A stretch of DNA of 64,000 bases from Halobiforma lacisalsi AJ5 (GTDB lineage: Archaea; Halobacteriota; Halobacteria; Halobacteriales; Natrialbaceae). Within the stretch, counting starts at the first letter, position 1. Every line of letters starts with the position of its first letter. Both the position numbers and the translations under genes were made by a program. A model generated the notes under the pieces. It saw only the letters and a program-made list of their open reading frames with translations, was not told the DNA's origin and made no database searches. Location of the stretch: assembly GCF_000226975.2 (NCBI RefSeq), contig NZ_CP019285.1, forward strand, positions 1,240,001-1,304,000, read 5' to 3'. Of the stretch, positions 1-17,967 are shown piece by piece.

Positions 1-1843
1 CCCGCTGGATCGTCGCCTCCTCGAGCAGGGAGAGATCGCCCGACTCGAGTTGTTGCTCGTAGTAGGCCTCCTGTTCGTCGATCAGCCCTGTCAGGTCGTC
101 CTCTGCGGTTGCGAGGACCTCGTCGCTGTCGGCCCGGAGTTCGTCGCCTTCGAGACGCTCCGCGTACAGCGTCATCGTGTTGTACGCGGCCGAGGCCTGT
201 ACGATCTCGGCCTGGGCCTCGTCGTACTGGCCGTCCTCGAGCAGGGCCGTCGCTTCCTCCGACGCATCCAGATAGAGCGTCGACGCGCTGCCGAAGGTCA
301 GAATCGTCGAGACGTCGTCGCCGTCGGCTTCCCCGGATCGCATCTGGGAATCCATCGTCTCGACCATCTCGAGGGTCCCGTCGGCGACGAGGCCGTCGTG
401 TCCGGAGAGATCGTCCCGGATCGGATCGAGGTCGAGCGGGACGGGTGCGGCGACGATAGTCATCCGTTCGCTCTCGGCGTCGTCGCTGTCGAATTCGTAG
501 GTCCACTTGTAGTTCGTCCCGAGTTCCGCGTCGGTGTCGAACTCGAGTGCGAACCTGACCGTATCCGACTCGCCCGCGAGGAGACCGCCCGGCGCGCTCT
601 GGACGGTGAGCCAGTCGTCCGGGCCGTCCTCGAGCGTCATCTCGAGGTCGTAGATGTCGTTGTAGCCGAGTTCCTCTTCGACGGTGGCGGTGACTCGTTC
701 GCCCTCGCCGATCGGTACGTCGCCGAGTGAGACGCTTTCGACCGCAATCCGCGTGTCGTGGACGATCTCGAGGTCCCCGTCGTAGCTCCCGCTTTCGACC
801 GAGTAATCGGACGCGCTCGCGGTCGCCGAGAAGTCGTAGTCTCCCTCGGAGAGGCCGGTACTCGCCGTGACGACGACGTCGACCGTCTCGGTCGACCGGG
901 CATCGATCTCGTCCGGAACGTTCTGGGTGTCGACCGAGATGTCCCAGCTCGAGGCCGAGGCGGAGACGCTGCTGACGTCGAGCGGCTGGTCGCCGTCGTT
1001 TGGCACCTCGAGTTCGATCGTCTCGGTGATCTCGTCGGTTTCGTCCCGTGGCTCGTCGAACACCATCGGATCGTCGAACTCGAGTTCGCCGAAGTAGCCG
1101 GGGTAGATGACTCGAGCCTCGACGTCGACCTGGCGGGTCTCGTCGTACTCGTATCGTGCATCCTCGAGTTCGACGGTCCAGGACAGCGACTCGTGTTGAT
1201 CGACGTCCTCGTCGACCGTGATCTGCCACTCGGCGGTATCCTCGCCGCCCGGACCGGTCTGGACGCTGCCTTCGCCCCAGCTACTGCCGTCCATGTCGTT
1301 CAACTCGAGCGTGGCGTCCGGATCGTCGTCCACGATCCGCCACTCGACGCCCTCGAGGCCGGTATCGCCGCCGACCTCCTCGATGACGACTTCCCCGCTC
1401 GCGGTTTCGCCGACGAGCAGGTCGCCGGCGTCCAGGGGATCGTCCTCGAAATCCGGAGTCGGTGGCTGGGCTTCGACGGTGACGGTGAAGTCGAACGATA
1501 CACCGTTGGCATCACCGTAGACTGTGTACGTGCCGGGGTCGGCGTCGTCGTCGACGTCGACGTCGAGATCGACGCTCTCGGAATCGCCCGGCGGGATCGT
1601 CACGGTCGTCTCCTCGACGTCGAACGGCTGTCCGCCGTCGTCGACGGAGATCGTCGCGTCGACGTCCTGTTCCTCTTCGGTCCCGCTCGTCCAGACCGTG
1701 ACCGTGGTCTCGCCCGTTTCTCCGGCCATCACCTCCACGTCTTCGGCGCTCGCACTGCTGACGGATGCCGCCTGTGCGGCCGGCACCATCGTCAACCCGA
1801 CCACTACTGCGAGCACCAGCAGTGCCACACTGCGCCTAGACAT
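1..1843 (-). CDS. Secreted/surface protein with beta-sandwich repeats, last visible gene of the tubulin-like operon (partial)
   Basis: Reading from the ATG at 1843, an open frame of about 614 codons runs off the left edge, so the C-terminus is missing. Residues 1-26 form a signal peptide (two arginines, a hydrophobic stretch, then AQA). The body consists of acidic beta-rich segments resembling the NEW3/CARDB-type domains common in haloarchaeal surface proteins. These are followed by a helical stretch rich in Glu, Ala and Gln near the window edge. The start overlaps the stop of the gene before it (ATG at 1843 or 1849, stop at 1836-1838), showing translational coupling. No enzymatic motif is visible. 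A role as the extracellular part of the tubulin-like membrane system is inferred from context only. Confidence 0.8.
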   Translation of the reverse strand, partial: MSRRSVALLVLAVVVGLTMVPAAQAASVSSASAEDVEVMAGETGETTVTVWTSGTEEEQDVDATISVDDGGQPFDVEETTVTIPPGDSESVDLDVDVDDDADPGTYTVYGDANGVSFDFTVTVEAQPPTPDFEDDPLDAGDLLVGETASGEVVIEEVGGDTGLEGVEWRIVDDDPDATLELNDMDGSSWGEGSVQTGPGGEDTAEWQITVDEDVDQHESLSWTVELEDARYEYDETRQVDVEARVIYPGYFGELEFDDPMVFDEPRDETDEITETIELEVPNDGDQPLDVSSVSASASSWDISVDTQNVPDEIDARSTETVDVVVTASTGLSEGDYDFSATASASDYSVESGSYDGDLEIVHDTRIAVESVSLGDVPIGEGERVTATVEEELGYNDIYDLEMTLEDGPDDWLTVQSAPGGLLAGESDTVRFALEFDTDAELGTNYKWTYEFDSDDAESERMTIVAAPVPLDLDPIRDDLSGHDGLVADGTLEMVETMDSQMRSGEADGDDVSTILTFGSASTLYLDASEEATALLEDGQYDEAQAEIVQASAAYNTMTLYAERLEGDELRADSDEVLATAEDDLTGLIDEQEAYYEQQLESGDLSLLEEATIQR

Positions 1844-2867
1844 CCCCATCACCCACCGTCACGACGGACCCGACCTGCGCCCGTTCGTAGGTCCGTTGCC
1901 ATGCGAAGATCCGCCCCAGCAGGATCGTCCCCAACAGTCCGACGATCACGCCGTACCCTACGAGCACCGACGCCGACGCAATCGCCAGCGACAGGCGAGC
2001 GTCACTCGTTTCGTCGTCGAGCGTCGCGAGCGCCTCCTCGCGGTCCTCGAGCCCGTGGAACGTTGCCTCCGCTCGAGCGTCGGCCACCGCGTCGTCGACC
2101 GTTCGTACCTCCTGGTACTGCTCGAACGTCCCGAGGACGTTCGGCGCGCCGGCGACAGCGCTGCCGACGTCGTTGCAGTCCCCGCAGTCGTCGAAGAATG
2201 CCTCGGCGTCGGCTTCGGCGTCGTCCATCTCCGCGAGAGCGGCCTCGTAGGCCGCGGTCTCTTGCTGGACCTGGAGGTTGAACTCCGCGGCCTCGTCCGG
2301 CATGTTCGCCCGTTCGTAGGCCGTCGCGGTCAGCGAGAGCAACTCGAGCCGGTCGGGGGTCCGCTCGGCCGCCTCGGCCTCGTCGTAGAGGCCGTCGGCA
2401 AGCCCCTCGTAGAACCGCGTTACCGCGAGGTCGGCGAGCGTCGCCTGGGTCTGTTCGTACTCCTCTAAGTCGGCGATGTGTGCGTCAGTCTCCTCCGCGT
2501 ACTCCAGGCTCTCCTCGTAGTCGCCGTCCTCGGCGTGGCGGTACGCTCGATCGAACGCTACCATCGCGGCGCGCGCGGCCTCGAGTTGCGCGCGCTCGTC
2601 GTCGTCGAGGGTGCCGGTCTCCTGTACCTGGGTCACGGCGAAGGTCCGAATCGTCTCGAACTCGTCGTACTCCTCGTAGGCCTCGGTGCCCTCCATCGCC
2701 CGGAACTCCTCGAAGTAGTCGTCGGCCGTTTCGGGCTCGTCCGCCGCGGCGGCCCCCGCGAAAAGCGGCGCGGCCGCGACCGCTGAAACGGCGACGATCG
2801 CGACGAGGATCACCGCTCGAGCGTCGGCGCCCGGTGTTGTCGTCGTCAGTGTCGGTCTCGATCTCAT
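1836..2867 (-). CDS. Membrane-anchored helical protein, unknown function
   Basis: A 343-residue protein with an N-terminal signal or anchor segment (about 17-40), a long alpha-helical acidic middle and one strong transmembrane segment near residues 292-319, followed by a short basic tail. The helical part resembles TPR/coiled-coil helices (many Ala, Glu, Tyr and Leu at heptad-like spacing) but no family was recognised. A CxxC pair near residues 228 and 231 could bind metal or form a disulfide. It begins 2 bp after the stop of the 1015-residue gene and overlaps the next gene, so it belongs to the same operon. With the bulk outside and the tail inside, it could connect surface proteins to the cytoplasmic tubulin-like filaments; that is inference. 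Confidence 0.85.
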   Translation of the reverse strand: MRSRPTLTTTTPGADARAVILVAIVAVSAVAAAPLFAGAAAADEPETADDYFEEFRAMEGTEAYEEYDEFETIRTFAVTQVQETGTLDDDERAQLEAARAAMVAFDRAYRHAEDGDYEESLEYAEETDAHIADLEEYEQTQATLADLAVTRFYEGLADGLYDEAEAAERTPDRLELLSLTATAYERANMPDEAAEFNLQVQQETAAYEAALAEMDDAEADAEAFFDDCGDCNDVGSAVAGAPNVLGTFEQYQEVRTVDDAVADARAEATFHGLEDREEALATLDDETSDARLSLAIASASVLVGYGVIVGLLGTILLGRIFAWQRTYERAQVGSVVTVGDGDV

Positions 2868-2869
2868 CT

Positions 2870-5800
2870 CTAGAACACCGTCCGTGACAGTCGTTCGCGG
2901 AGGGAGTCGTGCTCGAACAACTGTTCGACCGCATCGAGCACGAGCAGGGACGCGTAGGCGGTGACGATCGCCTGGTCTCCCCGATCGGCGTCGCCGACCA
3001 GATCCCAGGCGCGGTTGTGCATCTCTCGGGCCGGCGCGATCTCGGAGACGTCCCGCCGGGCGTCCTCGATCTGCCCAGCGACGTCCTCGTAGCGTTGTTT
3101 GAGTCGGTTCCGCTGGCTCGTCGGATCGTCACTGAGGCGATCGAGCAACTCGGCGAGGTCGTACTCGCCGCGCCACCGGACGCCGGCGTCCGGCATGTCA
3201 GCACAGGCGGCAAAGAGGTCGACGTTGCGCTTGGTCGTCATCGCATCGTTGATCGCCTCGGTCGTCTCCGCGGCGGCCTCGAGGATCGCGTCCGCGACCG
3301 CGTCAGGGTCGTGGTCGCCGCCGACGAACAGGTGACCGGCGTCGGGCATCGACTCGACGGTCTCGAGCATCGACTCGACGACCGACGCGTAGTACTCGGG
3401 GATCGACGTATCCCGGCCCGACTGGGCCGCGAGCGACTCGAGGTCGCGCCGGACGTCGGCGATCCGGTCGCGCTGGCCCTGGGAGAGCGACCAGGTGAAG
3501 CGGGCGTCGACCTCGGCCGTCGCCGTTCCGTTCTCGCGGACGACGAGGTCGGCCTCGCCGCCGGCAAAGAGGTCCGAACGGTCGCCGGGCGAGGGAACCT
3601 CGACGCGGTACCGACCGGCCATCACGTCGTCGCGGGTCGCAGTCCCGTTGCGCCCGGTCGTCGTCCGGAAGCCCTTCGAGCGTTGCTGGAGGAACCGCTC
3701 GCTGTCCTCGGGCGTGACCCGAAGCGCCATCGACTCGGTCGCGACGCCGTCGATCCGAGAGACGATCTTCACCCGGCCGGTTCGAGGCTCGAGTTCGACC
3801 GTGCGGTCGTCGTTGCGACCGAACCGGACGGTCTTCGTCCGACTCTCGTACTTGTTCGCTTCGTGCCCGATCTCGACTTCGACCCCGGAACTCGAGCCGT
3901 CGTTCGGCGGTTCGATCGTCACCGTGCCCCGCTTGCCGGTCGTCTTCGAGGCGCCGTCGGCCGTGCGGACTGTCGCTCCGGGAACCGGGTCGCGGTCCGA
4001 TGCATCGACGACGGTGAGCGTCGTCTCGGAGGTGACGGTCAACACCGCACTCGAATTGCGTCGGCTGACCGTTTCGACGTCCGACGTTTCGGAGCCGTGC
4101 TTGGCGATCAGTTCCCACGTTCCCCGATCGGGCAGGGAAACGGTACCGCTCCCGCCGACGATGGTCGAGGAGCCGTTCCGGTCGCCGTCGCCCGCCTCGC
4201 GGTAGTGGACGGTCGCCTGACCGGTGAGTTTCCCGCTCCCGTCACTGATCGTCACATCGGCGGTGAAGCCGGGAGTCACGTCGGCTCCGCTCGAGCGGTT
4301 GCCAAGCAGAGCGTACGAAAGCGGCGCGACGGCGGTTCCGAGGAGGACGCCGCCTGCCCCGACGCCGTGGATGACCGGATCGATCGGAAAGACGTTCCCG
4401 GTGACGTAGAGCACGCCGATGGTCCCCGCGAGCGCCAGACAGAACGTGGTCAGCGCCGAGAGGGCGACCTTCGCCGTCGTCGGTTGCCCGCCGATGCGGA
4501 CCCCTGCTATGCCGATTCCGAGTCCGAGGACGAGCGATAGCACCACCGGCGACCCGATCGTTCCGACGACGATCGCCTGCGTGACCATCCCTGCCTCGTC
4601 GGTGTCCGCGGTGTCCGGTTCGACGAGTTCGACCGTCGCCGTTCCGGCGACGGTCTGAACGAGCACGGTGTCGTCCTCGCCGATGGAGTCGATCCCAGCG
4701 GACTCGAGGTCGAGTTCGAGCGTCCCTTCCTCGTCCATGCCGTCGACCCCGACCGTGTGGGCCGTGCTGTCGTTCGGTTCGAGGACGGCACCGGTAACCT
4801 CGAGGTCGGCCGCCGCTTCGTCGAACGAGAGCGTCGAACCGTCCGCCACCGCCGTAAGGCCGAACGGCCCGTCGTACTCGAGTGACTCGTCGATCTCGAG
4901 GTCACCGGCGTCGTTCGCGGCGACGACCTCGACGTCGATACTCCCCTGCGGTGACAGCGAGGAGAGTCCGAGGACGCCGGGTCGGTTCGGTTCCACGGTA
5001 GCGACGTACCGTCCGTCGCTCCCTTCCGCGACCACGTCGTACTCCTGATCCGTCTCGAGCCCGGGATACCACAGCGAGAGACGGTCGTCGATCGACCGGA
5101 GTTCCGGCTCGAGGACGATCGGCTCGTCGGGAGCTTCGAAAACAGCCGGCCCGTCGGACTCGGCCAGCACCGCGAGTTCGATCGGCTCGCCGGCACCCAG
5201 CGCGGCGACGCCTTCGCGCTCGAGTTCGAGTTGGCTGCCGTTTCCGCGGATCGTTCCCTGGAACGAGTCGCTCTCGGATCCGCTCTCTCCGCTGACGGCG
5301 ACCGTGTCGCCGGCGGCGACGCCGGTCGTCGCCGAGGCGTTCAGCGGCACGCGGAGTTTGTCGCTCTCGCTTTCGTTTTCGTCTTCGTCTTCGTCTTCGT
5401 CGTCGGTCGCGTCGGTCCACACGGGTAGATCGTCCGAGACGGTCACGGCGTGAAGCGGGACTCCTTCGTGGTCGGCCGACGCCGTCTCGCCGTCACCGGT
5501 GACCGAGACGGTGACGTTCGCGTTCGTCAACGAGACCCCGGCGGCGTCCCCCTCGTCGGGATCGGTGACGTCGAACGCGAACTCGGTTCGACTTTCGTTT
5601 TCGCCGACCTCTTCCGCGTACGCGACGTCGGCGTCCTCTACGTCGATGCGGACCTCTTCGAGGGAGTCGACCCCGGACTCGGACAGGGTCACGATGAGGT
5701 CGTGACCCTCGCGCTCGAGGTCGACCTCGAGGGCGGCCTCGCCGTCCTCGTTTTCGTTCTCGTTCCCGTCTTCGTCGGCCGCCGCGACGTCCGCGACGAC

Positions 5801-5917
5801 CGCACCGCCGAGCGCGAGTGCCGCGACGAGCGCGAGTGCGACGAGGACCCGTCTCACGGTCGTGGCGCGACCGTCGGGCGGGGAGTCCCGGCGTCGATTG
5901 CGTTCGTATCCTACCAT
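2870..5917 (-). CDS. Large multi-domain membrane protein (signal peptide, beta domains, 3 TM, carboxypeptidase-regulatory-like and helical domains)
   Basis: A 1015-residue protein. Residues 21-47 form a signal peptide. About 48-440 is an acidic extracellular beta-rich region with a DE repeat (residues near 170-185, from a repeated ttc-gtc codon tract at 5384-5404). Roughly 445-545 holds three hydrophobic segments. After them come two or three beta-sandwich segments with the feel of carboxypeptidase-regulatory-like (transthyretin-fold) domains, then a C-terminal helical domain with no further membrane span. It lies 7 bp after the tubulin-like gene at 5925-7151 and 2 bp before the next gene. 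The three-span topology would put the last approximately 470 residues on the opposite face from the N-terminal domain, i.e. probably in the cytoplasm near the tubulin-like proteins. Function unknown. Confidence 0.88.
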   Translation of the reverse strand: MVGYERNRRRDSPPDGRATTVRRVLVALALVAALALGGAVVADVAAADEDGNENENEDGEAALEVDLEREGHDLIVTLSESGVDSLEEVRIDVEDADVAYAEEVGENESRTEFAFDVTDPDEGDAAGVSLTNANVTVSVTGDGETASADHEGVPLHAVTVSDDLPVWTDATDDEDEDEDENESESDKLRVPLNASATTGVAAGDTVAVSGESGSESDSFQGTIRGNGSQLELEREGVAALGAGEPIELAVLAESDGPAVFEAPDEPIVLEPELRSIDDRLSLWYPGLETDQEYDVVAEGSDGRYVATVEPNRPGVLGLSSLSPQGSIDVEVVAANDAGDLEIDESLEYDGPFGLTAVADGSTLSFDEAAADLEVTGAVLEPNDSTAHTVGVDGMDEEGTLELDLESAGIDSIGEDDTVLVQTVAGTATVELVEPDTADTDEAGMVTQAIVVGTIGSPVVLSLVLGLGIGIAGVRIGGQPTTAKVALSALTTFCLALAGTIGVLYVTGNVFPIDPVIHGVGAGGVLLGTAVAPLSYALLGNRSSGADVTPGFTADVTISDGSGKLTGQATVHYREAGDGDRNGSSTIVGGSGTVSLPDRGTWELIAKHGSETSDVETVSRRNSSAVLTVTSETTLTVVDASDRDPVPGATVRTADGASKTTGKRGTVTIEPPNDGSSSGVEVEIGHEANKYESRTKTVRFGRNDDRTVELEPRTGRVKIVSRIDGVATESMALRVTPEDSERFLQQRSKGFRTTTGRNGTATRDDVMAGRYRVEVPSPGDRSDLFAGGEADLVVRENGTATAEVDARFTWSLSQGQRDRIADVRRDLESLAAQSGRDTSIPEYYASVVESMLETVESMPDAGHLFVGGDHDPDAVADAILEAAAETTEAINDAMTTKRNVDLFAACADMPDAGVRWRGEYDLAELLDRLSDDPTSQRNRLKQRYEDVAGQIEDARRDVSEIAPAREMHNRAWDLVGDADRGDQAIVTAYASLLVLDAVEQLFEHDSLRERLSRTVF

Positions 5918-5924
5918 GTCTGCA

Positions 5925-7151
5925 TCACTCCGCGTTCCGCTCCACGTACGACTCGAGGTTGTCGACGATGCGATCCAGTTCCGCCCGCGAGAGGTCGCCC
6001 TCGCCGCGACCCTGCCCGGCGAGGCTGTCGCCGAGCATCTCGAACTCGTCCCATGAGTGCTCGAGCAGCGGGTTCAGGTCGAACCCGCCGAGCAACAGCA
6101 GGACGTCGATGTCGCTTCCCCGACCTCGTTTGGGGGTGAGGCTGGCCTGGCCGGCGACGTTGATGTCGTGTTTCCCCGTCCAGTCGCGGAACGCACCGTA
6201 GACGTCGGGTTCGGTGATCTCGTCGTTCTCGATCATGCTCTCGGGAGCCCGTACGATCGCGTAGGCCGCCTGGGTCGTGCCGACATCCATCGGGACGTAG
6301 GTGTTCTCGGCGGCCTGATCGAGCATGTACTCGAGTTCGTAGACGTTTCCGTTGAGTTCGGTCGCGACGGCTGGCGTGAAGTGGTAGGCGTCCATCTGGG
6401 ACGGGATCGTGACGTAGTCTTTCACGTCGATGACGCTGCGCGTCTCCCGGCCCGCGCCGATCATCAGGTCGATCGCAGTGATGATCGCGTCGTTGATGGA
6501 GTCGTAGTGACGGCCGTTGCCGTTCTCCTCCTCGTCCAGGTGGGAGTTCGCCGCCAGCAGGACCATGTCGCCGTTCTGCTCCCCCTCGCCGGTTCGAAGC
6601 AGCCGGGAAAGACCACAGACGGCGTTGAAGTGTCGCTGGGGCTGCTCGTAGTAGTAGGGCCAGACGCCGAAGGCCGTGTGGATCACGCTGTCCATCCACC
6701 GCTCCGAGGCCCCGTTATCGTTCAGATCCTCGAGGCCGTTCTTGAACTGATCGACGACGTAGGGAATCGATCCGTTCCCGGTGCCGCCGCCGAGCGTGGC
6801 GACGTGCATGAACGCGTCGGTCGTGCCGAACTCCTTGATGTTCTCGACGATCCGATCGAGGTCCTCGCGGGCGCAGGCCTCCCCGTTCGGGAAGAAGTTC
6901 CCCGCACCCTGCTGGGAGCCGAACTCCAGCGCGTGGGATTCCATCATCTCGTCTTCGTCCCGGTCGGTCCCCATCCCGCCTTGCATCCGGTCGATCGTGT
7001 TCCGGAGGTCGGCGCGGTTGGTGTTCATGACCAGGATCCGGTCGTCGATCCCCGGATTCTCGCTTCGATCGAAAAACTGCGACGCGATTCGTCCGCCACC
7101 CTCTCCCGAGGCGATGACGCTCCATCTCGTAAACGTGTCCGTTCGTGCCAT
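5925..7151 (-). CDS. Divergent tubulin/FtsZ-superfamily GTPase (tubulin-like C)
   Basis: A 408-residue soluble protein. The tubulin signature loop GGGTGNG sits at residues 121-127, close to its place in FtsZ. Other superfamily landmarks are a glycine-rich first strand/loop (SGEGGG, 15-20), an Asn-rich MNTN at 42-45, a T6-like NSH at 202-204 and IDVKDY at 241-246, where FtsZ has its T7 catalytic NxDxxD. Length fits one tubulin fold with no long tail. It is clearly not FtsZ1, FtsZ2 or CetZ by eye: the first strand and the T7 context differ. The ATG is directly adjacent to the stop of the upstream membrane protein gene. Expected activity is GTP-dependent polymerisation; the visible residues permit GTP binding, while polymerisation is inference. 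Confidence 0.87.
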   Translation of the reverse strand: MARTDTFTRWSVIASGEGGGRIASQFFDRSENPGIDDRILVMNTNRADLRNTIDRMQGGMGTDRDEDEMMESHALEFGSQQGAGNFFPNGEACAREDLDRIVENIKEFGTTDAFMHVATLGGGTGNGSIPYVVDQFKNGLEDLNDNGASERWMDSVIHTAFGVWPYYYEQPQRHFNAVCGLSRLLRTGEGEQNGDMVLLAANSHLDEEENGNGRHYDSINDAIITAIDLMIGAGRETRSVIDVKDYVTIPSQMDAYHFTPAVATELNGNVYELEYMLDQAAENTYVPMDVGTTQAAYAIVRAPESMIENDEITEPDVYGAFRDWTGKHDINVAGQASLTPKRGRGSDIDVLLLLGGFDLNPLLEHSWDEFEMLGDSLAGQGRGEGDLSRAELDRIVDNLESYVERNAE

Positions 7152-9257
7152 TTATCGTACCTCGATCGCTGTTTCGGTGGTCGTCACGCTGTACTCCACG
7201 TCCGCGTCGGCGTCGACGGCCACGACCGCATCCCGGACGACCGAATCGGGAACTGGCGCCGACAGGAAGTTCCGCTCGAGTTCGTCGAAGGTCAGCCGGT
7301 CGCCCGGCTCGACGTTGTACCGGACGACGTTGGTCAGTTCCCGCTCGAGTTGCTCGCGGTCGTAGACGACGACGTCGTCGCCGTCCCGACAGACGTCGTA
7401 GGCCGTCTCCTCGGCCCACGCTGCCAGGAGACACGGTGCGTGGCTGTCCCGAACGGGCAAGTCCATCGCCGTCGAAACGTATCCCTCGTCGGCGAACAGG
7501 TCCCCGAGACGGGGTCGCATCTCCGGCAGGACCTCCTCCATGTCGGCATCGACGTCCTCACAGAGTTGCTCTCGAAGCCCGCGCTCGACGAACTCGACGT
7601 CGATCGTCGTCTCGCCGTCGACCCGAATTTCCCGCTCGACGGGGGCGAAATCCTCGTCGCCCGGATCGGCCGCGAGAGTGTGTGTCCCCGCCGGCACGTC
7701 CGGGAACGTCGCGGTGCCGGCGATTCGCGTCTCGAGGGTCTCGGTCGCCGCGTAGCCGTCGGTCAACTCGAGCGTGGCGGTCCGGACGTCGCCACCGCGC
7801 TCGTAGGTCACCTCGACCGCGAGTTCGTAGGTCTCGACGTCGCCGCGCCTGAGCACGGGAACGTCGGGGTCGAACTCGACGCCGTCGTTGCGTCGGAAGT
7901 ACAGGCCGAGGAACTGGTCGGCGTGACGCATCGGCAGGTCGTCGCCGGTGACCTCTCCTTCGCGCTCGAGGGTCGTCTCGATCGTGTCGGCGACGTCGTC
8001 GTAGGCGTCGACGACCGCAGCCTTCGTATTTGCCGTCTCGAGGGCGTCCCGAAGCTGGGTCGCGACCTCGCTCCAGCGGTCGGCCAACGCGTCGAGGTCG
8101 TCGATCTCCTCGAGTTCGTCGACGAACCGCTCGCCGACCACCTCCGGCTCCGCGTAGTACCCCGGCGGGAGGTCCGCTTCCCGCAGCGTTCGGACGTCGT
8201 CCTCGAGGTCGCGTTCCATCGTCGCGATCATGTCGATACACGTCCGGCGCAGGTCGGCCCGCGGCCGGCTCAGTTCCGCGAGGTCGAGCGCGGAGTCGAG
8301 CGACTCCACCTCGGACTCGATGCGATCGACGTCGTCGACGTACTCGGCGTCGACGTAGGCATCGACGTCCGCCCGGTCGACGGCATCGATCAGATCCAGC
8401 AGCGACTCCCGCTCGCTCTCGAAGGAGCCCGAGAACTGGTCACGAAGTCGGTCGCGAGCCTCGAGGATCCGCTCGACTGCGGTGCCGAACTCGTACCGCT
8501 CGAGCGCGGTCTCGGCGTCCTCGAGGTCGCGTTCGACGGCGTCCGCGTCGTCCGGCCGGACGTCGCCCCGGCCCATCTCGCGGACCGTCCCGATCGCGGT
8601 TTCGATCTCGTCGGTCGCGTCCGATCGCAGGCCGTCGATCGCGTCTCGACACTCCGGCACGGTCGCTCCCTTCTCGGGATCGAGTTCGGGAGACGAGCCG
8701 CGATCGGCGCTCGCGAGGTCGACCTCCGCGAGCCGCTCGAGGGCGTCGTCGACGCGTTCCTGCTCGGCCGCGCCGAACTCGCGGAACGACGATTCGATCT
8801 CCGCCTCGACGCTCTCGATCTCCGTCGAGAGCTGCTCGAACTTCTGGAGGTCGGCGCTTTTGACGCCCTTCCCGAGGTCGAACGCGCCGGACTCGAGGTC
8901 GAAGGAGACTCCCTCGGTTCGGAAGTCGCCCTCGATCGACTCGAGGCGGGCGTCCACGCCGGGGCTCCAGTTCGGATAGGCGGCCTCGAGGTCGTTCACC
9001 CGTCGTACGCACTCCTGGAACTCCTCGGCGACCGACCGGGCGCGGGTACGGACGAACTGCTGTTCGCTGGTACCGCTTCGGGCGACGACGCCGCGAACGT
9101 ACAGCGTGATGCCCACTACGACGACCAGCGGGATGCCGACGAGAACGAACCAGGTCGCGGCCTGGGAACCGGACCAGACGAAGATGCCGGCCCCGATCGC
9201 CGCCGCGAGCACGACCAGTCCGCCGATTCCCGCGGCGGTCTTTGCGTTCCCGTTCAT
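7152..9257 (-). CDS. Two-TM coiled-coil membrane protein with carboxypeptidase-regulatory-like domain
   Basis: A 701-residue protein. Two transmembrane helices (about 10-28 and 34-55) form an N-terminal hairpin, putting the rest on one side, probably the cytoplasm. Residues 65-400 are mostly acidic alpha-helix with coiled-coil character. About 440-550 is beta-rich, with a segment like carboxypeptidase-regulatory domains. The last 150 residues are mixed alpha/beta. A helical motif of the form AL-x-R-x-x-F-x-x-A with AR eight residues later (near residue 245) recurs in the upstream gene at 16270-17967, hinting at shared ancestry. It overlaps the previous gene by 4 bp and abuts tubulin-like C. 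No known family recognised; a membrane tether or regulator of the tubulin-like proteins is inferred. Confidence 0.85.
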   Translation of the reverse strand: MNGNAKTAAGIGGLVVLAAAIGAGIFVWSGSQAATWFVLVGIPLVVVVGITLYVRGVVARSGTSEQQFVRTRARSVAEEFQECVRRVNDLEAAYPNWSPGVDARLESIEGDFRTEGVSFDLESGAFDLGKGVKSADLQKFEQLSTEIESVEAEIESSFREFGAAEQERVDDALERLAEVDLASADRGSSPELDPEKGATVPECRDAIDGLRSDATDEIETAIGTVREMGRGDVRPDDADAVERDLEDAETALERYEFGTAVERILEARDRLRDQFSGSFESERESLLDLIDAVDRADVDAYVDAEYVDDVDRIESEVESLDSALDLAELSRPRADLRRTCIDMIATMERDLEDDVRTLREADLPPGYYAEPEVVGERFVDELEEIDDLDALADRWSEVATQLRDALETANTKAAVVDAYDDVADTIETTLEREGEVTGDDLPMRHADQFLGLYFRRNDGVEFDPDVPVLRRGDVETYELAVEVTYERGGDVRTATLELTDGYAATETLETRIAGTATFPDVPAGTHTLAADPGDEDFAPVEREIRVDGETTIDVEFVERGLREQLCEDVDADMEEVLPEMRPRLGDLFADEGYVSTAMDLPVRDSHAPCLLAAWAEETAYDVCRDGDDVVVYDREQLERELTNVVRYNVEPGDRLTFDELERNFLSAPVPDSVVRDAVVAVDADADVEYSVTTTETAIEVR

Positions 9258-10351: not shown

Positions 10352-10635
10352 CGTAGCTTCCCCCCGATCTGCTTGTTCTTGTACCAGTATGTGAGGCCGC
10401 TCGCGACGACGATGCCGAAGCCGAGTCCGATCAGCAGTCCACCGCCGACGAGCACGAGGGCCTGTCCCTCGAGTTCGACCGTGGTGATCGCCTTGTCAGT
10501 CACGTCGGTCGCCGTTCCGACCGGCGATTCATCGGTCCCGGCAGCGGCGGTCGCGACGGCGATACCGATCCCGAGACAGAGGGCTGCGGCCGCGCTCGCG
10601 GCCCGCGTGACCGTTCGGGACCAGCCCTGCATCAT
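10348..10635 (-). CDS. Small two-TM membrane protein of the tubulin-like operon
   Basis: A 95-residue protein. The start is taken as the ATGATG at 10635-10630, which overlaps the TGA of the tubulin-like gene upstream; a longer frame reaching 10794 would be read entirely inside that gene and has arginine/proline-rich shadow composition. Residues 11-32 are a signal peptide or first membrane segment. A short Thr/Asp-rich extracellular loop follows, then a glycine-rich second segment (58-84) and a basic tail (KNKQIGGKLR). Its stop overlaps the next gene by 4 bp. Glycine-rich small membrane proteins of this shape often oligomerise or bind a larger partner; here the partner is unknown. Confidence 0.8.
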   Translation of the reverse strand: MMQGWSRTVTRAASAAAALCLGIGIAVATAAAGTDESPVGTATDVTDKAITTVELEGQALVLVGGGLLIGLGFGIVVASGLTYWYKNKQIGGKLR

Positions 10636-11924
10636 GCGAGCAACTCCTCCGTTTCCCGTTCGTAGGCGTCCGCCGCGGCTTCGATCTCCTCGAGTCGGTC
10701 GAGATCCTCGCGCCGGTAGGTCAGAAGCGTCGTCACCGACGCGAGGTTCCGGTCGCTGAGCGCGACGCCCAGGTTCACTTCGTTCAGCCCGCAACTGCGC
10801 TCGAGGAACTCCTTGACCGTCCCCGTCTCGACGCTGTACGAGCCCGCCCCGAGGTTCGAACTCGGTGCCCTGATCAGCGAGATCGCTTTCTGTGCGTCCT
10901 CGACGTCGGCGTTCGCGACCGTCTGCTTGGAGGCTGACAGCCGCGACAGCGCCGCGCTGTCTACGTCCCGTTTGCCGACGAACGGCAACAGGTAGCCCGA
11001 GAGCGATCGGGTCATCGTCACCGATCGCCCGATCGCGCCGTAGCCCGGCCGCGACTCGTCAGTACCGACGCCAAAGGATAGCGACGTCACGATGTCCTGG
11101 ACGTCGATGTCCGGGGTGTCGACCCCGTCGACCTCGCTGGCGTCGACGCTGCTCAGCATCGGGCCGGCGACCATGTCGTGGATCGCCGTCGCCACGTACT
11201 CGTTGTACTCGCCGAACTCGCCGCCGGCGGAGTTGAGGTAGGAGATCCGCTGGTTGTCTACGAGGATGATCCCGTCGACCTCGTCCTCGAGCCGGTCGAG
11301 CCCATAACGGGCGTTCCAGGCCTGCCGGCCGGCGTTGGTCTCGTCGTCGGCGTTACTCCGGGTGTTCGGGAGAACGGCGACTGCGACGACCTTGGTTCGA
11401 CCGTCGGTGAACTCCTTGATCTCTCGAGCCAGGTGGGGACCGATCCCGCAGCCGGTCCCGCCGCCGAGTCCGAGAAAGAGGAAGGCGAACTGGATCGTGT
11501 CCGATCGGCCGGGGTCGACGGCGGGTTCCTCGTCGTCGCCCTCGCCCTCGTCATCGGCGTAGGCCGTCTCGTAGCCGCCGTCGAATTTCTCCCCGAAGAT
11601 CGTCTGTAGCTCCGAGGCGTGATCGCTCATTACCTCGTCGGCGGCGGCCGGGTTGCGCCCGAACCCGCCGGTGACCATCTCCTCGAACCCGGGTTCGGTT
11701 CCCTGCACCAGGCCGTGCTGTTCTGCGACGCCGTACTGATCCTCGACAGGCACGTTGGACAGGTTCTGGAGGTCCCGCATCGTCGAGTTGAAGACCAGCG
11801 GCCGACCGAGCGTCGAGATGTCGGTCGACTCGAACAGCCCGAGCATCGAGTCGTCGGTGTGATCGAAGATCGCGTCGACGATCGCTCCCCCTGCCTGTCC
11901 CGCCCCTACGAACAGGTACGTCAT
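10632..11924 (-). CDS. Divergent tubulin/FtsZ-superfamily GTPase (tubulin-like B), first gene of the eight-gene operon
   Basis: A 430-residue protein that looks most like CetZ/FtsZ of the three paralogues. GAGQAGG (7-13) is the T1 loop, GLGGGTGCG (152-160) the tubulin signature, VDNQR (222-226) a T6-like Asn, and IDVQDI (273-278) lies where the T7 synergy loop contributes the catalytic aspartates. Residues 112-140 form an acidic insertion before the signature loop. The C-terminus ends in a helical acidic segment. The start is leaderless: a TATA-like AT stretch sits about 22 bp upstream. Being the first gene of the polycistron, it is likely the most highly expressed. CetZ membership is the main alternative; the insertion, the GCG instead of GSG, and the operon argue for a separate clade. 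Confidence 0.9.
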   Translation of the reverse strand: MTYLFVGAGQAGGAIVDAIFDHTDDSMLGLFESTDISTLGRPLVFNSTMRDLQNLSNVPVEDQYGVAEQHGLVQGTEPGFEEMVTGGFGRNPAAADEVMSDHASELQTIFGEKFDGGYETAYADDEGEGDDEEPAVDPGRSDTIQFAFLFLGLGGGTGCGIGPHLAREIKEFTDGRTKVVAVAVLPNTRSNADDETNAGRQAWNARYGLDRLEDEVDGIILVDNQRISYLNSAGGEFGEYNEYVATAIHDMVAGPMLSSVDASEVDGVDTPDIDVQDIVTSLSFGVGTDESRPGYGAIGRSVTMTRSLSGYLLPFVGKRDVDSAALSRLSASKQTVANADVEDAQKAISLIRAPSSNLGAGSYSVETGTVKEFLERSCGLNEVNLGVALSDRNLASVTTLLTYRREDLDRLEEIEAAADAYERETEELLA

Positions 11925-12283: not shown

Positions 12284-14311
12284 TCAGCCCCGGAGACGCC
12301 GGAGCATGACGCTGTACTCGTTTCGCTCGTACAACTGTTCGACGTGCCCGAGCAGTTCGTCGGTCGCCGACAGGATCCCGGCGGCCCGCTCCGGGTTCCG
12401 CTCCTCGAGGGTCGCCGCCTCGCGGCGGAGGTCACGGGCCAGCGACAGGAAGTGGTTCGGGATGGTGTGGTTGTGGTCGGCTCGAACGCTGACGTACTCG
12501 TCTTCGATGGTCGCGACCCGGGACTCGACGTCGGATGCGAGTCGCTGGACGTCGGCCGATCCCTCGTCGGACCGGGACCGGGCAAGCCGCGGCAGGAGCG
12601 TTCGGTCGTAGAACGTACACTCCTGGTAGATCGCGTACAACTGGACGTCGTCGACCCCGTCGCGGTCGACCATCGCCTCGAGTTCCCGAACGCGGTCGGC
12701 GAGGTGGCGGTAGACCGCGCCCTCCTCGCGTTGCAGTTCGTCGTCCAGCGAATCGAGCCGCCGCCGGACGTCGTTCGTACCGATATCGGCCACCGCGGCC
12801 CGCAACTCGGCGTGTTCGTCGACGGTCTCGACCGTCGATTCGAGCACCGCCGACACGTCCGACTCTTCCCATCCCGAGTCGCCGAGTACCTCGAGTAGCT
12901 CCCGGGACTGTGCCGTCTGCGGTCGAACCGTCCGCTCGACCTCGTCGACGATCAGTGCCAGGTCCGTCCCCGGGGTGTCGAAGACGAGTTCGCCGTCCTC
13001 GAGGGCATCTGCGAGTTCGACCGTCCGATCGTCGACCTCGTCGGTCCGGAAGGTGAGGCCCCCGCTCCGGGCAGCCTCCCGACAGACGGTTCCGGCGGCG
13101 TCCTCGATCCGGTCGTAGGTTCGCCGGTACCGGTCCAGTTCGGCCTCGAGTTCGGCGATTTCCTCCCGTCGGTTCTCGTCGGGCCGACCCTCGGACGCGG
13201 ACGTGGATGCGGAGGCCGACTCCGACCTCGCCTCCGCGACCTCGGTTTCGAGTTCCAGAACCCGCTCGAACACCGGTTCGACGCCGTCGGCGATCGGTCC
13301 CTCCTGGGCCGCAAGCGACCGTTTCGCCGCTTCGACCCGTCGTTCGTCGGTCGCATCGTCGACGTCGGCGACGGCGTCGGCTACCGTGCCAGCACGCTCG
13401 AGACGGTCGACTACATCCTCGAGAACGTCCTCGACGCGCCCCTCGTCGGGCGAAGAAGCGGACAGGACGCGACACAGTTCGCCGGCAAGCGGGTCGCTCG
13501 GCCGAGTTCGGGACGCGACGTCGTCGGCAACCGCCGTCACCGGGTGCGGAGTCGATTCGGACGCGCCGCTCTCGCTGGGTTGACTGTCGCCGCTGACATC
13601 GCGACTGGGATCCGGATCGGGATCGGACGATTCGGCGGACGCTCCCGCCTGCTGACGTGCTTCGGCTCCGCGTCCGCGCCCCTCCCGTCGGCTTCGCCGA
13701 CTGCTGCCGGGATTCTTGATCTCCCGGACGCGCTGGCGGACCTCGGAGACGACTTCGTCGACGGTATCCGTCGCGCTCGAACTGATCCGGGTCGATCCCC
13801 CGCCCGAGGTCTTGATCTCGAGTTCGGTGAACGCGCCGTCCTGGTGGGACTGGACGCCGGTCACCTGATCGTAGTAAATCTCCTTGTTGGTCCCCCCGCC
13901 GACGCCCGACCGGGACTTCATGTCGTACTCGGCCCCCTTGTTGAGATTGATCGAGGTTTCGGTGACGACGATGGTCGTGTTGTAGTAGGTATCGGACGGT
14001 TCGACCAACAGCGGCGAACTCCCGGAGTTGTACGTGAGGTTGTAGAGGTTCGCGTCCTCCACGTCGATCCCCCGTTTCGCGTTGCGCTCGGACTCGCCGA
14101 TGAACTTCTTGACGAACGGCCGATACTTGTCGTTGATCTCCCTGACTCCCCAGTACCACGTGATAACGCCGGCCAGTATTCCGAGGACGAAGAAGGCCCC
14201 GACCTCCTCGACCCCCGCACCGATCAGCGTGAAGACGACCGTGACGCCGATGATGACGCTCCACGGCGACCAGCCGATCTTCCACCGGATGTTGTTGACG
14301 TCCCCTGCCAT
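12284..14311 (-). CDS. Two-TM protein with PH-like domain and long helical cytoplasmic region
   Basis: A 675-residue protein when started at the second in-frame ATG (14311), chosen because a TTAA box at 14339-14342 would place transcription there; the first ATG at 14323 adds four residues. Two transmembrane helices fill residues about 15-55. About 85-200 resembles a bacterial short PH domain (beta strands, then a VREVR-type helix), as in membrane-anchored bPH proteins. A disordered Ser/Asp/Arg linker follows, then 350 residues of acidic helix with coiled-coil character. It sits between tubulin-like A and B and points the same way. A membrane-bound scaffold for the cytoskeletal proteins is the natural guess. 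No family recognised for the C-terminal part. Confidence 0.85.
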   Translation of the reverse strand: MAGDVNNIRWKIGWSPWSVIIGVTVVFTLIGAGVEEVGAFFVLGILAGVITWYWGVREINDKYRPFVKKFIGESERNAKRGIDVEDANLYNLTYNSGSSPLLVEPSDTYYNTTIVVTETSINLNKGAEYDMKSRSGVGGGTNKEIYYDQVTGVQSHQDGAFTELEIKTSGGGSTRISSSATDTVDEVVSEVRQRVREIKNPGSSRRSRREGRGRGAEARQQAGASAESSDPDPDPSRDVSGDSQPSESGASESTPHPVTAVADDVASRTRPSDPLAGELCRVLSASSPDEGRVEDVLEDVVDRLERAGTVADAVADVDDATDERRVEAAKRSLAAQEGPIADGVEPVFERVLELETEVAEARSESASASTSASEGRPDENRREEIAELEAELDRYRRTYDRIEDAAGTVCREAARSGGLTFRTDEVDDRTVELADALEDGELVFDTPGTDLALIVDEVERTVRPQTAQSRELLEVLGDSGWEESDVSAVLESTVETVDEHAELRAAVADIGTNDVRRRLDSLDDELQREEGAVYRHLADRVRELEAMVDRDGVDDVQLYAIYQECTFYDRTLLPRLARSRSDEGSADVQRLASDVESRVATIEDEYVSVRADHNHTIPNHFLSLARDLRREAATLEERNPERAAGILSATDELLGHVEQLYERNEYSVMLRRLRG

Positions 14312-14335
14312 TGCAGAGGCCATGCACTCAGGCCG

Positions 14336-14531: not shown

Positions 14532-16160
14532 TCAGGCCATGTTCTCCCGGCCGAGACAGGAAAACAGCGCCTCGACGTGTTCCCACGCGTCCCGAACGTT
14601 CTCGGCCTGCTGGCTGTTGCCCTCCTGTTTGAGTCGCTGGGCGTGGTCGTACATCTCCTCGAGCGACGGCAGTTCGGGGTTCCACAGCGTCCCCCAGAGG
14701 AAGACGTCGTCCAGGTACGGCGTGACGAGTTGCTTGACGTGGATGTCGACCGACTCGATGCCGCTTACGTTCCCCGCGTCGAGGAACTGCTCGTCGCCGA
14801 TGATGTTCGCGAGCGTGCCGTCGGAGACGAACTCCGTGACCTCCTCCATCTTCTCTTCCGGGCCGTAGACGAGGAAGGTGCCGCCCCACGCGGTCGTCGG
14901 GTCGAACTCGGCGAGTTTGTTCTGGAACAGGGCGTTCCGGACCAGGATCTCGAGTTTCGACCGGTCGAACGAACTCGCCCGCGAGCGGCCGAGGACGGGC
15001 GCGAGGATCACCGCCGGCGTGAACTCGCTGTCGGGGTCGCGCTCGTACTTGTCCTGGACCGGCCGGAAGCTGTCGGCGGGATCGAAGACGTCGCCCATGA
15101 TCGACATGGTCGCGTCCCGGTCGAGGAACTGTGGCACCGACGACATGGTAAACGCCTCGAGGAACGCCACGAGCGGCTTGTTGATCTCCCGATACTGGGG
15201 CGGGTTGTACTCCTCGAGGCGTTCGATCCGGGGCCGGATGTCGGCCTGGACGTTCTCGAGCCGGTTGTTGTCGAAGGGGATGATCGCGTCGACGGTCCGC
15301 GAGGCGCGGGCGAGGCCGACGACGCCGTTGACCTTCGCACGGCCGCCGAACTCCGAGTACTCGGTCCCCTTCGAGGGGATGACGATGCTGCTGAACAGCG
15401 GCTTCGGGACGACGAGGTCGTCCTCGAGGACCTCCTCGCGGATCTTCTCGGCCAGCACGGGCGTCGACCCACAGCCGGTCCCCTTCGTGACGCTGTGGAC
15501 GAACATGACTGCCTGGGAGTCCTGGATCCGGTCCTTCCGCAGGTCCCACCGTTCACGGAAGGGGTCGCCGTCGTCCGCGAAGTCGGCCTCGACGAGTTTC
15601 TTCCCGATGTCCCAGCGGTAGCCGGCCCCCGCGTAGTCGTGTTTCCCGAAGCCGATGATACAGTTCGGAAGGAGGTCGTTCCGGCTGTACTCCTTCTCTT
15701 CCTGGGCGTAGTAGGTCTGCTCGAGTTCGCTAACGTTCGTGTTCAGCGGCCCGTAGCCGGCGAGTCCGCCGTTCCAGATGCGAGCGCGGCGCTCGTTGTT
15801 CGCCTCGAGGGTGTCCCGGCGAAGCAGGATCGCGTCGAGGATGTTGTTCCCCGCGCCGCCGACCCCCACGAGGTACCACTTCTTCCCGTAGGGGTCGTCC
15901 ATCAGGTCGTCGCTCGGGGTCTCGGCCGGCCCGCGGCTCCCGCCCGCGTCGACCGACCCCGGCCCCGCGCCGGAGCCCAGTCCGTCCTCGGCGTCTGGTT
16001 CGTCGGGTTCGGGCTCCGCGAAGACCTCCGCCTCGAGGTCCGGATACACCTGTTCGACCGACGCCGGTTCGTCTCCGTGTGCGTTGCGAACGTGCTCGAC
16101 GAGCGAGTCGCCGTCCCACTCGTCCGCCCGTTTCATACAGATTTTACAGATAGTGCTCAT
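14532..16160 (-). CDS. Tubulin/FtsZ-superfamily protein with N-terminal C2H2 zinc finger (tubulin-like A)
   Basis: A 542-residue protein. Residues 5-28 form a zinc-finger pattern C-x2-C-x14-H-x4-H. An acidic Gly/Pro linker (about 35-90) leads to a tubulin-like fold: VGVGGAGNN (98-106) is the T1 loop, KGTGCGS (226-232) a degenerate tubulin signature in which the first two glycines are lost, DNNR (297-300) a T6-like site, and FDPADS (359-364) a possible T7 loop with Asp-x-x-Asp. Insertions after T1 make it about 100 residues longer than FtsZ. The zinc finger could bind protein or nucleic acid. GTP binding is plausible; the altered signature raises the possibility of weak hydrolysis. It is flanked by TM/coiled-coil genes on both sides. 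Confidence 0.85.
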   Translation of the reverse strand: MSTICKICMKRADEWDGDSLVEHVRNAHGDEPASVEQVYPDLEAEVFAEPEPDEPDAEDGLGSGAGPGSVDAGGSRGPAETPSDDLMDDPYGKKWYLVGVGGAGNNILDAILLRRDTLEANNERRARIWNGGLAGYGPLNTNVSELEQTYYAQEEKEYSRNDLLPNCIIGFGKHDYAGAGYRWDIGKKLVEADFADDGDPFRERWDLRKDRIQDSQAVMFVHSVTKGTGCGSTPVLAEKIREEVLEDDLVVPKPLFSSIVIPSKGTEYSEFGGRAKVNGVVGLARASRTVDAIIPFDNNRLENVQADIRPRIERLEEYNPPQYREINKPLVAFLEAFTMSSVPQFLDRDATMSIMGDVFDPADSFRPVQDKYERDPDSEFTPAVILAPVLGRSRASSFDRSKLEILVRNALFQNKLAEFDPTTAWGGTFLVYGPEEKMEEVTEFVSDGTLANIIGDEQFLDAGNVSGIESVDIHVKQLVTPYLDDVFLWGTLWNPELPSLEEMYDHAQRLKQEGNSQQAENVRDAWEHVEALFSCLGRENMA

Positions 16161-16189
16161 GTTCGGATGTCGTACTCGTTCGTCGGATC

Positions 16190-16200
16190 GTGCTTTAGGT
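16190..16200 (-). promoter_or_regulatory. TATA-like box before tubulin-like A
   Basis: Minus-strand CCTAAAGC at about 16192-16199 is 34 bp upstream of the ATG at 16160, giving a predicted leader of about 8 nt. The 109-bp gap after the upstream gene leaves room for a separate promoter. Confidence 0.35.
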
Positions 16201-16269
16201 TTCGGGTCGTTTCGCCGGCGGTCGTAAGCCGGGGATCGATTCCAGTCGCCGGCGCTGCCGTCGGCCGGA

Positions 16270-17967
16270 TCATCCGCCGTACCTGTCCGCGAACCGTTCC
16301 CGGAGCGTCTCGAGGCCGGCGTCGACGCCCGTGTGCTCGTCGAATCGGATCTCGAGGAAGCCCGGCGGTGCGCCCTCCTGTAGCTCGACGTCGACGACGA
16401 CGTCGGTCTGTCGCCGGCAGAACCGTGCCAGTTCCTCGAGAACGGCCGGTTCCGCGACCGGGTCCGGCAGCCGCTCGGTCTGGCACTCGACGCTCGCGGC
16501 GTCGCCGACCCCGTCCAGTTCCCGCAGGACGTACAGGATCTCGTCGGCGATCGATTCGGGGGTGACCGCCTCGCGTGCTCGTTCTCGGTCGGTTCCCCGG
16601 CTGTCTCCCGGCTTCGGATCGCTCGAGGAAGCGGGAGGTGGATCGGAGCCGGGATCGGAACCTGGACCGGAGCCGGGATCGATCCCCTTCCGGCCGGTTT
16701 CGCCCTGGCGATCGCGGTCCCCCCTGCTTTCCTTCTGGACCTTCTCGAGGACGATTTCCCGCGCCTCCCGGTCGAGGTCGACCGCCACGTCGTGCCGCCG
16801 CGTGACGAGCGGGACGACGTCGGCGACGAGCGCCAGCGGTACCTCCTCCGGGACGTCGATCCTGCCCCGGCCGTGATCGACCGTTCCGACTACGCCGCCG
16901 AGGAAGTCCACCGTCACCAGCAATTCGTCGCTGCTCGCCCGGGCCTGGTCCAGCGTCCGCATCGCCTCGTCGAACGTACAGCGGTGCAGCGCCCGGGTCG
17001 CGTCCGAGAGCAGGCGTTCGATCTCGACGACGCCGTCGATCGATTCGTGTCGGCCCTCGACGACGAACTCGCCGATGCGGTCCCCGAGGTCGTCCTCGAG
17101 TCGGTCGGCCAGTTCCCGGACGTCCGCGAGCGTCTCCTCGACGGCCTCACGGCGGTCCGTAAACGCCTCCTCCTGGCGGCGGACGTAGGTCTCGATCTCG
17201 CGGCAGTGGTCGTACAGGGCCCCGATCGTCCGTGCGGCGTCCCGGACGTGCCGTTCCTCCTCGAGGACGTCCGCGGCGACGGATTCGACGTCGGCGACGT
17301 GGATCGTCCCGTCCGAGGGCGGGAGCGTGACCTCGCGGTACTGGCTCGGCAGGTTCACGATCTCGTAGGGTTCGCCGAACGCGGAGGAGACGCCCGGATC
17401 GAGGCGACCGTCGGCGATCGCCTCCTCGAGCGCGGTGCGCAACTCGCGTTCCAGTCGGTCGATCTCCCGTTTCGGGTCCGTGGCCGAATCCGGGTCGAAC
17501 GCCCGGGCCCGGTCGACCGCCGCGGGCGCGATCGGCTCGAGGCGCTCGAGCGTTCCGTCCCCGATTCGTTCCTCGAACGCGACTCGCGGGTCCTCGTCTC
17601 CGCCCAGTGTGGACGACGGTCGGTCGTCCGTTCCGGAACCGCCGTCGACGCGGGAGTCGGTCGACGCCTCCCTCTCGCTTCTCCCTTCGTTCGCGGCCGT
17701 TGCGGTCGATCCCGACCGGGCGCGAACTGCGGCGGCGAGTCCACCGCCGAGGACGAGCACCCCGCCGACTACGAGCGCGAGGCCGACCCCGGTGCCGAGG
17801 TCCCCCGCGACGCCGACCGTCGGCTCGAGGGCGGCGACTCCCCGCGAGAGCGACGTGACGGCCGGATCGATCACCTCCGGGAACGACGTTCCGGATCCCC
17901 GGTTCGTGGCGACCGCCGGCGGATCGCCGAACGGCCACCGTCCTCCCCCTGAACGGTCGATCTGCAT
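16270..17967 (-). CDS. Single-TM coiled-coil protein, first gene of the tubulin-like locus
   Basis: A 565-residue protein started at the ATG at 17967 (an ATG 9 bp earlier is too close to the TATA-like box). One transmembrane helix lies at about residues 55-80, followed by a Ser/Arg/Asp-rich linker and a large acidic region that is mostly helical (about 150-380). A further low-complexity Gly/Pro/Ser/Asp linker leads to an alpha/beta C-terminal domain of about 100 residues. The motif AL-x-R-x-x-F-x-x-A with AR eight residues later (near residue 325) matches one in the 701-residue protein at 7152-9257. No family recognised. Orientation and position make it part of the tubulin-like locus, though the convergence of function is inference. 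Confidence 0.82.
   Translation of the reverse strand: MQIDRSGGGRWPFGDPPAVATNRGSGTSFPEVIDPAVTSLSRGVAALEPTVGVAGDLGTGVGLALVVGGVLVLGGGLAAAVRARSGSTATAANEGRSEREASTDSRVDGGSGTDDRPSSTLGGDEDPRVAFEERIGDGTLERLEPIAPAAVDRARAFDPDSATDPKREIDRLERELRTALEEAIADGRLDPGVSSAFGEPYEIVNLPSQYREVTLPPSDGTIHVADVESVAADVLEEERHVRDAARTIGALYDHCREIETYVRRQEEAFTDRREAVEETLADVRELADRLEDDLGDRIGEFVVEGRHESIDGVVEIERLLSDATRALHRCTFDEAMRTLDQARASSDELLVTVDFLGGVVGTVDHGRGRIDVPEEVPLALVADVVPLVTRRHDVAVDLDREAREIVLEKVQKESRGDRDRQGETGRKGIDPGSGPGSDPGSDPPPASSSDPKPGDSRGTDRERAREAVTPESIADEILYVLRELDGVGDAASVECQTERLPDPVAEPAVLEELARFCRRQTDVVVDVELQEGAPPGFLEIRFDEHTGVDAGLETLRERFADRYGG

Follow-up and report, generated by a model that had tools for sequence, protein, structure and literature searches.

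What do three divergent members of the tubulin superfamily do in a single haloarchaeal operon, interleaved with eight genes for membrane or secreted proteins? The locus that raises this question occupies positions 17967 to 1 of the window, the 64-kb stretch of the Halobiforma lacisalsi AJ5 genome analysed here, and consists of eleven genes, lettered K to A in the order of their transcription. An earlier reading, made from the sequence alone, had described them as a self-contained membrane-scaffold or remodelling system, with nearly all genes in one direction. All eleven genes of the operon K-J-I-H-G-F-E-D-C-B-A share the minus strand, gene A continues 481 nucleotides (nt) beyond the left window edge, to genome position C1:1239519, and the system is not self-contained, the unit that is gained or lost comprising 16 genes, including a five-gene operon with an AAA+ ATPase outside the window. 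A role in membrane remodelling does fit the content of the locus, and we give about even credence to the proposal that a 16-gene system, of which these eleven genes make up the greater part, builds a trans-envelope membrane-remodelling machine, with vesicle budding or localised export as its likely output.

A block of sixteen genes

The extent of the unit is defined by genomes that lack it. A same-genus relative is without C1:1231372-1258026 (26,655 bp; window -8628 to 18026), which is precisely the 16 genes, and there the flanking genes are directly joined, the flanks meeting 10 bp apart; in a second genus the same flanks lie ~2 kb apart. The 16 genes are gained or lost together as one block, and because the convergent five-gene operon goes with the others, the eleven-gene stretch in the window is not the whole unit. 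No direct repeats of at least 10 nt were found at the block ends, and the relative's locus contains no tRNA. Over this region the genome of the window is 96.9% identical to Halobiforma haloterrestris, which is for this reason taken as a near relative. The eleven genes and the features predicted for their products are the following, with the evidence in brackets.

K, 16270..17967, minus strand: 565 amino acids (aa), N-terminal transmembrane (TM) segment(s) and a long cytoplasmic coiled-coil region (open reading frame (ORF), hydropathy); orthologues at the same position in the 10 other K-J-I genomes, the counterpart in Halobacterium salinarum R1 being OE_RS12075
J, 14532..16160, minus strand: 542 aa, third tubulin-like protein (Pfam Tubulin 43.4 bits, Protein Data Bank (PDB) profile matches)
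I, 12284..14323, minus strand: 679 aa, N-terminal TM hairpin and cytoplasmic coiled coil (ORF, hydropathy, orthologues)
H, 10632..11924, minus strand: 430 aa, tubulin-like, apparent obligate partner of D (Pfam Tubulin 60.2 bits, D-H co-occurrence)
G, 10348..10635, minus strand: 95 aa, small membrane protein, 4-nt overlaps with H and F (ORF, hydropathy)
F, 9254..10351, minus strand: 365 aa, signal peptide-like segment, ectodomain and two C-terminal TM segments (ORF, hydropathy)
E, 7152..9257, minus strand: 701 aa, N-terminal TM hairpin, cytoplasmic helical region and a domain common to C (ORF, hydropathy, alignment)
D, 5925..7151, minus strand: 408 aa, tubulin-like, with GGGTGNG and the T7 DxxD (Pfam Tubulin 35.9 bits, AlphaFold model)
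C, 2870..5917, minus strand: 1015 aa, signal peptide-like segment, ectodomain and central TM segments (ORF, hydropathy), the cytoplasmic part with a weak carboxypeptidase-regulatory-like match and helical regions
B, 1836..2867, minus strand: 343 aa, signal peptide-like segment, ectodomain and C-terminal TM segment (ORF, hydropathy, distant orthologues)
A, 1..1852 plus 481 nt leftward, minus strand: 777 aa, signal peptide-like segment, NEW3/immunoglobulin (Ig)-like ectodomain and C-terminal TM segment

From H to A the genes are tightly packed, with intergenic spacings of -4, -4, -4, 0, +7, +2 and -17 nt, and K, J and I are more loosely spaced, with gaps of 109-359 nt. The start of G was corrected, so that its 95-aa product begins with the ATG at 10635. 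Membrane or secreted features had been noted in all eight non-tubulin genes, and a hydropathy scan predicts signal or TM segments in each of them. The PH-like domain proposed for I finds no Pfam support at E 0.1; the carboxypeptidase-regulatory-like domain proposed for C is weakly matched, at 20.8 bits against a cut-off of 32.3. The ectodomain of A matches Pfam NPCBM_assoc (1e-11), and A has a weak similarity to the model of a putative S-layer protein.

To the left of A, on the opposite strand and convergent with the eleven-gene operon, lie five genes which encode a propeller/putative Ig protein, an AAA+ ATPase and three further proteins, one helical (245 aa), one with a coiled coil (354 aa) and one of 372 aa. 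The propeller gene matches PQQ_2 slightly under the cut-off (E 4.5e-5, 23.6 bits) and its R1 orthologue is annotated as a PQQ-like beta-propeller. The ATPase matches Pfam AAA with 111 bits, without an MIT match, and its N-domain gave no match in the PDB. This arrangement resembles the Halo_adaptin ESCRT-like system, for which vesicle formation has been proposed and one CetZ-related protein mentioned (Makarova et al. 2024, PMC10936438). As judged by gene order and type, and as far as the available text of that paper describes the system, both are haloarchaeal and have proximal, coiled-coil, small helical, AAA+ ATPase and PQQ-propeller/Ig genes in the same order. The ATPase of that system is Vps4-like, without MIT and with a VAT-like N-domain, and sequence comparison showed no likeness of the present N-domain to VAT_N. 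Genes are present at the published ESCRT-III/PspA-like and winged-helix positions upstream of the ATPase, and the poorly conserved 245-aa gene sits at the position expected from the Halo_adaptin order. The likeness extends to the CetZ-related protein, CetZ structures being the nearest to D and H, and Haloquadratum walsbyi, which is named in that text, has the present locus (L114). The two descriptions differ in that the available text reports one CetZ-related protein, whereas the present locus has three tubulin families and eight membrane or secreted genes, in a 16-gene block whose tubulin core also occurs without the ESCRT-like half in other archaea.

Across the 146 Halobacteriales genomes surveyed, orthologues of D and H are found in the same 13, J in 11 of these and, in a divergent form, in one genome elsewhere, and the 372-aa gene at the far end of the unit in 12, namely the 11 K-to-A genomes and one incomplete genome; chance overlap of these distributions has a probability of ~1e-13 or less (hypergeometric). 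The view of the stretch as one conserved locus of three tubulins with membrane proteins was thus borne out in the neighbourhood comparison across Halobacteria, where the K-to-A order recurs in 10 further genomes, in one of them split over two contigs. In those genomes G, and in two of them also F, is too diverged for BLAST, with ORFs occupying their places in some. The five-gene operon adjoins the eleven genes in 8 other genomes (ended by a contig edge in one) and lies elsewhere or across contig breaks in 2 more. The full set is present in order on plasmid PHS2 of H. salinarum R1 (OE_RS12075 to OE_RS12000), where D is OE_RS12040, H is OE_RS12060, J is OE_RS12070 and the AAA gene is OE_RS12015, and the counterpart of G was assigned by position only. 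No match to D was found on the NRC-1 plasmids pNRC100 and pNRC200, and R1 has 210 kb that are missing from NRC-1 (PMC10264941). D occurs on five plasmid records; most of the genomes examined have it on the chromosome. All carriers tested keep FtsZ1 and FtsZ2, and CetZ is separate and intact.

In genomes G132 and G138 the H-to-A block is kept, K-J-I was not found, and the ESCRT-like operon is missing except for the propeller gene. In both, the H-to-A block is adjoined by an FtsZl1 protein of ~1157 aa with PF13809 and by a P-loop protein with TM segments (L073/L074 and L075/L076). The FtsZl1 arrangement and the K-J-I/ESCRT-like arrangement show zero overlap in 15 genomes, FtsZl1 occurring in only two. 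Genome G006 has a separate locus (L077/L078) where genes resembling K, J (593 aa) and I stand with a propeller gene, without H to A, and which also encodes a protein with a C-terminal kinase-like domain; it may be a stand-alone J system.

The tubulin-superfamily proteins D, H and J

The scores listed above for D, H and J all exceed the Pfam tubulin (PF00091) gathering cut-off of 33 bits, and the three proteins carry the tubulin loop motifs GGGTGNG, GGGTGCG and KGTGCGS, respectively. PDB profile searches with each returned tubulin-superfamily chains only, and the three are mutually alignable over 281-316 columns with E-values of 1e-10 to 1e-15. In loop alignments T1, T3, T4, T6 and T7 are kept in all three and the T7 DxxD is invariant across relatives, which makes GTP hydrolysis on assembly plausible. 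As judged from these comparisons, D, H and J are true members of the tubulin superfamily, in agreement with the sequence-only reading. The tubulin fold, one of the two points set beforehand as decisive, is supported for each of them; the other, co-occurrence of the genes, is borne out by their identical order in other genomes. The AlphaFold model of D (predicted local distance difference test (pLDDT) 85.9, predicted template modelling score (pTM) 0.89) shows a full tubulin/FtsZ fold with CetZ2 as best Foldseek match (E 8e-18); for J the support is weaker, the best structural matches of a low-confidence model (pLDDT 56) still being all FtsZ/tubulin; and for H it comes from the PDB profile matches.

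J combines a C2H2-like zinc-finger motif with the tubulin domain in a single protein. The N-terminal CxxC...HxxxxH motif has C5, C8, H23 and H28 invariant in an alignment of 13 sequences, as are D360 and D363, and the C-terminal peptide LFSCLGRENM is nearly invariant, with LGREN kept even in the G006 homologue.

In the main tree D, H and J form three fully supported monophyletic groups, which stand apart from FtsZ, CetZ and FtsZl1; the stems among D, H, J, CetZ and FtsZ are long, and the claim is limited to the monophyly of each family. The nearest solved structures for D and H are those of CetZ (4b45, 4b46, 3zid), from which the two differ in their separate, fully supported clades, in their neighbourhood, and in lacking CetZ_C (PF21011), which D, H and J do not match at E 0.1 and a CetZ of the same genome matches with 140 bits. 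No FtsZ_C domain was found by Pfam in D, H or J, and the FtsZ model TIGR00065 (cut-off 295 bits) is not reached, the scores being 20, 34 and 30 bits. Identity among haloarchaeal orthologues is 76-86% for D versus 31-68% for A, B, C and E, and by this measure the tubulins of the locus evolve slowly.

Membership of the FtsZl group, previously left undecided, can be answered in the negative for FtsZl1. That protein has ~1000 aa with an N-terminal FtsZ-like domain (Tubulin_2) and an extended coiled coil, and its neighbours are vWA, P-loop GTPase, protein kinase and OmpA genes (Makarova and Koonin 2010, PMC2875224). The likeness is that of a divergent FtsZ-superfamily protein within a membrane-protein operon. 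D, H and J, however, are 408, 430 and 542 aa long, keep T6 and T7, lack the long coiled-coil tail, have PF13809 absent or at 12.9 bits, and branch separately in the tree; no vWA, kinase, P-loop GTPase or OmpA neighbour was recognised by Pfam in the 16-gene unit. Another precedent is Halo.Tub, several divergent haloarchaeal paralogues near CetZ which occur quasi-tandem with coiled-coil neighbours (Santana-Molina et al. 2023, PMC9871819). As far as the available part of that paper describes them, these quasi-tandem copies are probably the present locus; the families D, H and J are not separated in that part, and neither an ESCRT-like link nor an obligate pair is given there. Our literature search found no paper connecting the Halo_adaptin locus with the Halo.Tub paralogues.

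An old core, probable haloarchaeal additions and neighbouring genes

Relatives of D were found at 59 loci across archaea, and the non-haloarchaeal genomes, mostly metagenome-assembled genomes (MAGs), include ANME-2, Methanoperedens, Hydrothermarchaeota, Altiarchaea and one micrarchaeon. All 15 distant D genomes tested have a relative of H at E 1e-57 or better, other tubulins reaching 1e-21 or weaker, and the H proteins of ANME-2 are more diverged. Found together in 13/13 haloarchaeal and 15/15 distant genomes, D and H appear to form an obligate pair. A, B and often E accompany them in ANME-2, Methanoperedens and Hydrothermarchaeota; at several distant loci A and B are divergent from H, E and D, and ANME-2 has A-B-H together, with D encoded at a separate locus. 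Both D and H are found in Altiarchaea and the micrarchaeon, E is conserved out to Hydrothermarchaeota and a micrarchaeon, and A, B and E keep their TM layout in Hydrothermarchaeota and Methanoperedens. The old core is thus D, H, A, B and usually E, and J, K, I and the ESCRT-like half seem to have been added in haloarchaea. In a second tree the grouping of H with H-like proteins of ANME-2 and Altiarchaea is weakly supported.

A wider proposal is more tentative, and we hold it with distinctly less than even confidence: D and H would be an ancient obligate pair predating the haloarchaea, possibly as old as the split between DPANN/Altiarchaea and Euryarchaeota, and with E, A, B and C would make up a filament machine spanning the envelope, comparable in prokaryotes to paired tubulins of the alpha/beta type. 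Haloarchaea would then have joined to it a zinc-finger tubulin and an ESCRT-like module, wiring both types of remodelling together. As a separate observation, an Altarchaeum MAG (L172) has extra long-branch H-like tubulin paralogues adjoining a B-like gene, which suggests further uncharacterised archaeal tubulin families.

Among the neighbouring genes, a divergent tubulin at C1:1220699-1221913 (window -19301 to -18087) was considered as a member of the system and rejected; it is a CetZ (CetZ_C 140 bits), lying ~19 kb to the left of the window and not in the variable block, in a region kept in the empty-site relative. Next to K on its upstream side, in the same orientation, is a Hel308-like helicase gene (18035-20401), which flanks the block from outside and is kept in relatives without it. 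Between 30000 and 40000 the GC content drops to 0.58-0.60 near tRNA-Ala (32655) and tRNA-Cys (36254), which would be expected of an rRNA operon; tRNA-Lys lies at 39858.

Candidate functions of the unit

In the mechanism that we propose, GTP-driven filaments would form along the inner side of the membrane, D and H either co-polymerising or assembling as a pair. The TM proteins E, I and K would tether and organise these filaments via their long cytoplasmic helical tails, and A, B and C would connect the scaffold through the membrane with Ig-like ectodomains. J, which has a zinc-finger motif of its own and a C-terminal peptide that may serve for docking, may have been added as a third filament or a regulatory subunit. 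The AAA/coiled-coil/propeller half would recruit cargo or adaptors and remodel or disassemble the scaffold in the manner of Vps4/ESCRT, and the output would be vesicle budding or localised export. We infer the filament, tethering and budding steps; a membrane-remodelling machine as such is supported by the 16-gene block, the conserved gene order, the intact T loops, the co-occurrence of D and H and the conserved TM layout of A, B and E, as well as by the match of the convergent operon to the order of Halo_adaptin, which the available text of PMC10936438 proposes to form vesicles.

Several points weigh against such a machine. The AAA domain is closer to Cdc48 (186 bits) than to Vps4B (109 bits), and the coiled-coil and 372-aa proteins gave no sequence match to ESCRT-III/PspA or winged-helix structures, so that the label ESCRT-like rests on PMC10936438. 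The topology of all membrane proteins is that of a simple hydropathy scan. In the stretches read from Hydrothermarchaeota and ANME-2 the D/H/A/B core occurs without the AAA half, and the job of the core may therefore not be scission. Nothing indicates the direction of budding, outward or inward, or a cargo, and our literature search found no experimental study of any member.

The oldest parts, D, H, E and the secreted or single-pass A and B, stand without AAA/ESCRT-like neighbours in Hydrothermarchaeota, Methanoperedens and ANME-2, which agrees with an alternative that we rate as unlikely rather than improbable, namely that D/H filaments anchor an extracellular Ig-type structure (an adhesin, S-layer link or appendage) via A, B and C. 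The machine would then shape or fasten the cell and the AAA half would recycle the filaments. The NEW3/Ig-like domains of A and its weak likeness to the S-layer protein model point the same way, but such a surface link leaves unexplained the AAA+ ATPase and the soluble propeller/Ig adaptor in the same haloarchaeal block, and it is mainly because the AAA half is linked that we consider vesicle budding about twice as likely.

That D, H and J are accessories of division or cell shape which modulate FtsZ or CetZ is improbable. They share a superfamily with these proteins, and D and H are closest to CetZ among solved structures, but all three are absent from most haloarchaea and lack CetZ_C and FtsZ_C domains, and FtsZ1/2 and CetZ are separate and intact; since FtsZ1 and FtsZ2 are retained, the output is likely not cell division. 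Lower still we place a defence or conflict module, sporadic and partly plasmid-borne, acting at the membrane against viruses or rivals. The unit is patchy (13/146 haloarchaeal genomes), missing from a sister species and found on five plasmids; however, the core also occurs in ANME, Hydrothermarchaeota and DPANN MAGs, the tubulins evolve slowly, Pfam searches of the unit brought up no domain of a nuclease, toxin or sensor, and PADLOC, which we ran for known defence systems, gave only generic AAA and coiled-coil matches. A phage origin was also considered and set aside, no relative of D being found in IMG/VR. Tubulin-family filaments segregate plasmids in Bacillus, and this precedent, together with the five plasmid records with D, speaks for a TubZ-like partition of DNA or plasmids, which is nevertheless very improbable, given that D is mostly chromosomal among the genomes examined, that the sister species has a chromosomal empty site, that the unit contains eight membrane or secreted proteins, and that no TubR-like DNA-binding adaptor was recognised in it by Pfam, no search aimed at TubR having been made.

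Two hints that stood apart in the literature, one a CetZ-like protein in a haloarchaeal ESCRT-like locus and the other the tandem Halo.Tub paralogues, are brought together here in one defined 16-gene unit whose boundaries are sharp, and the tubulin pair that is conserved even in distantly related archaea is set apart from later additions. Because the plasmids of NRC-1, the twin of R1, gave no match and plasmid PHS2 of R1 carries the unit intact, the role of these uncharacterised archaeal tubulins, and cooperation between tubulins and an ESCRT-like system in prokaryotes, become testable.

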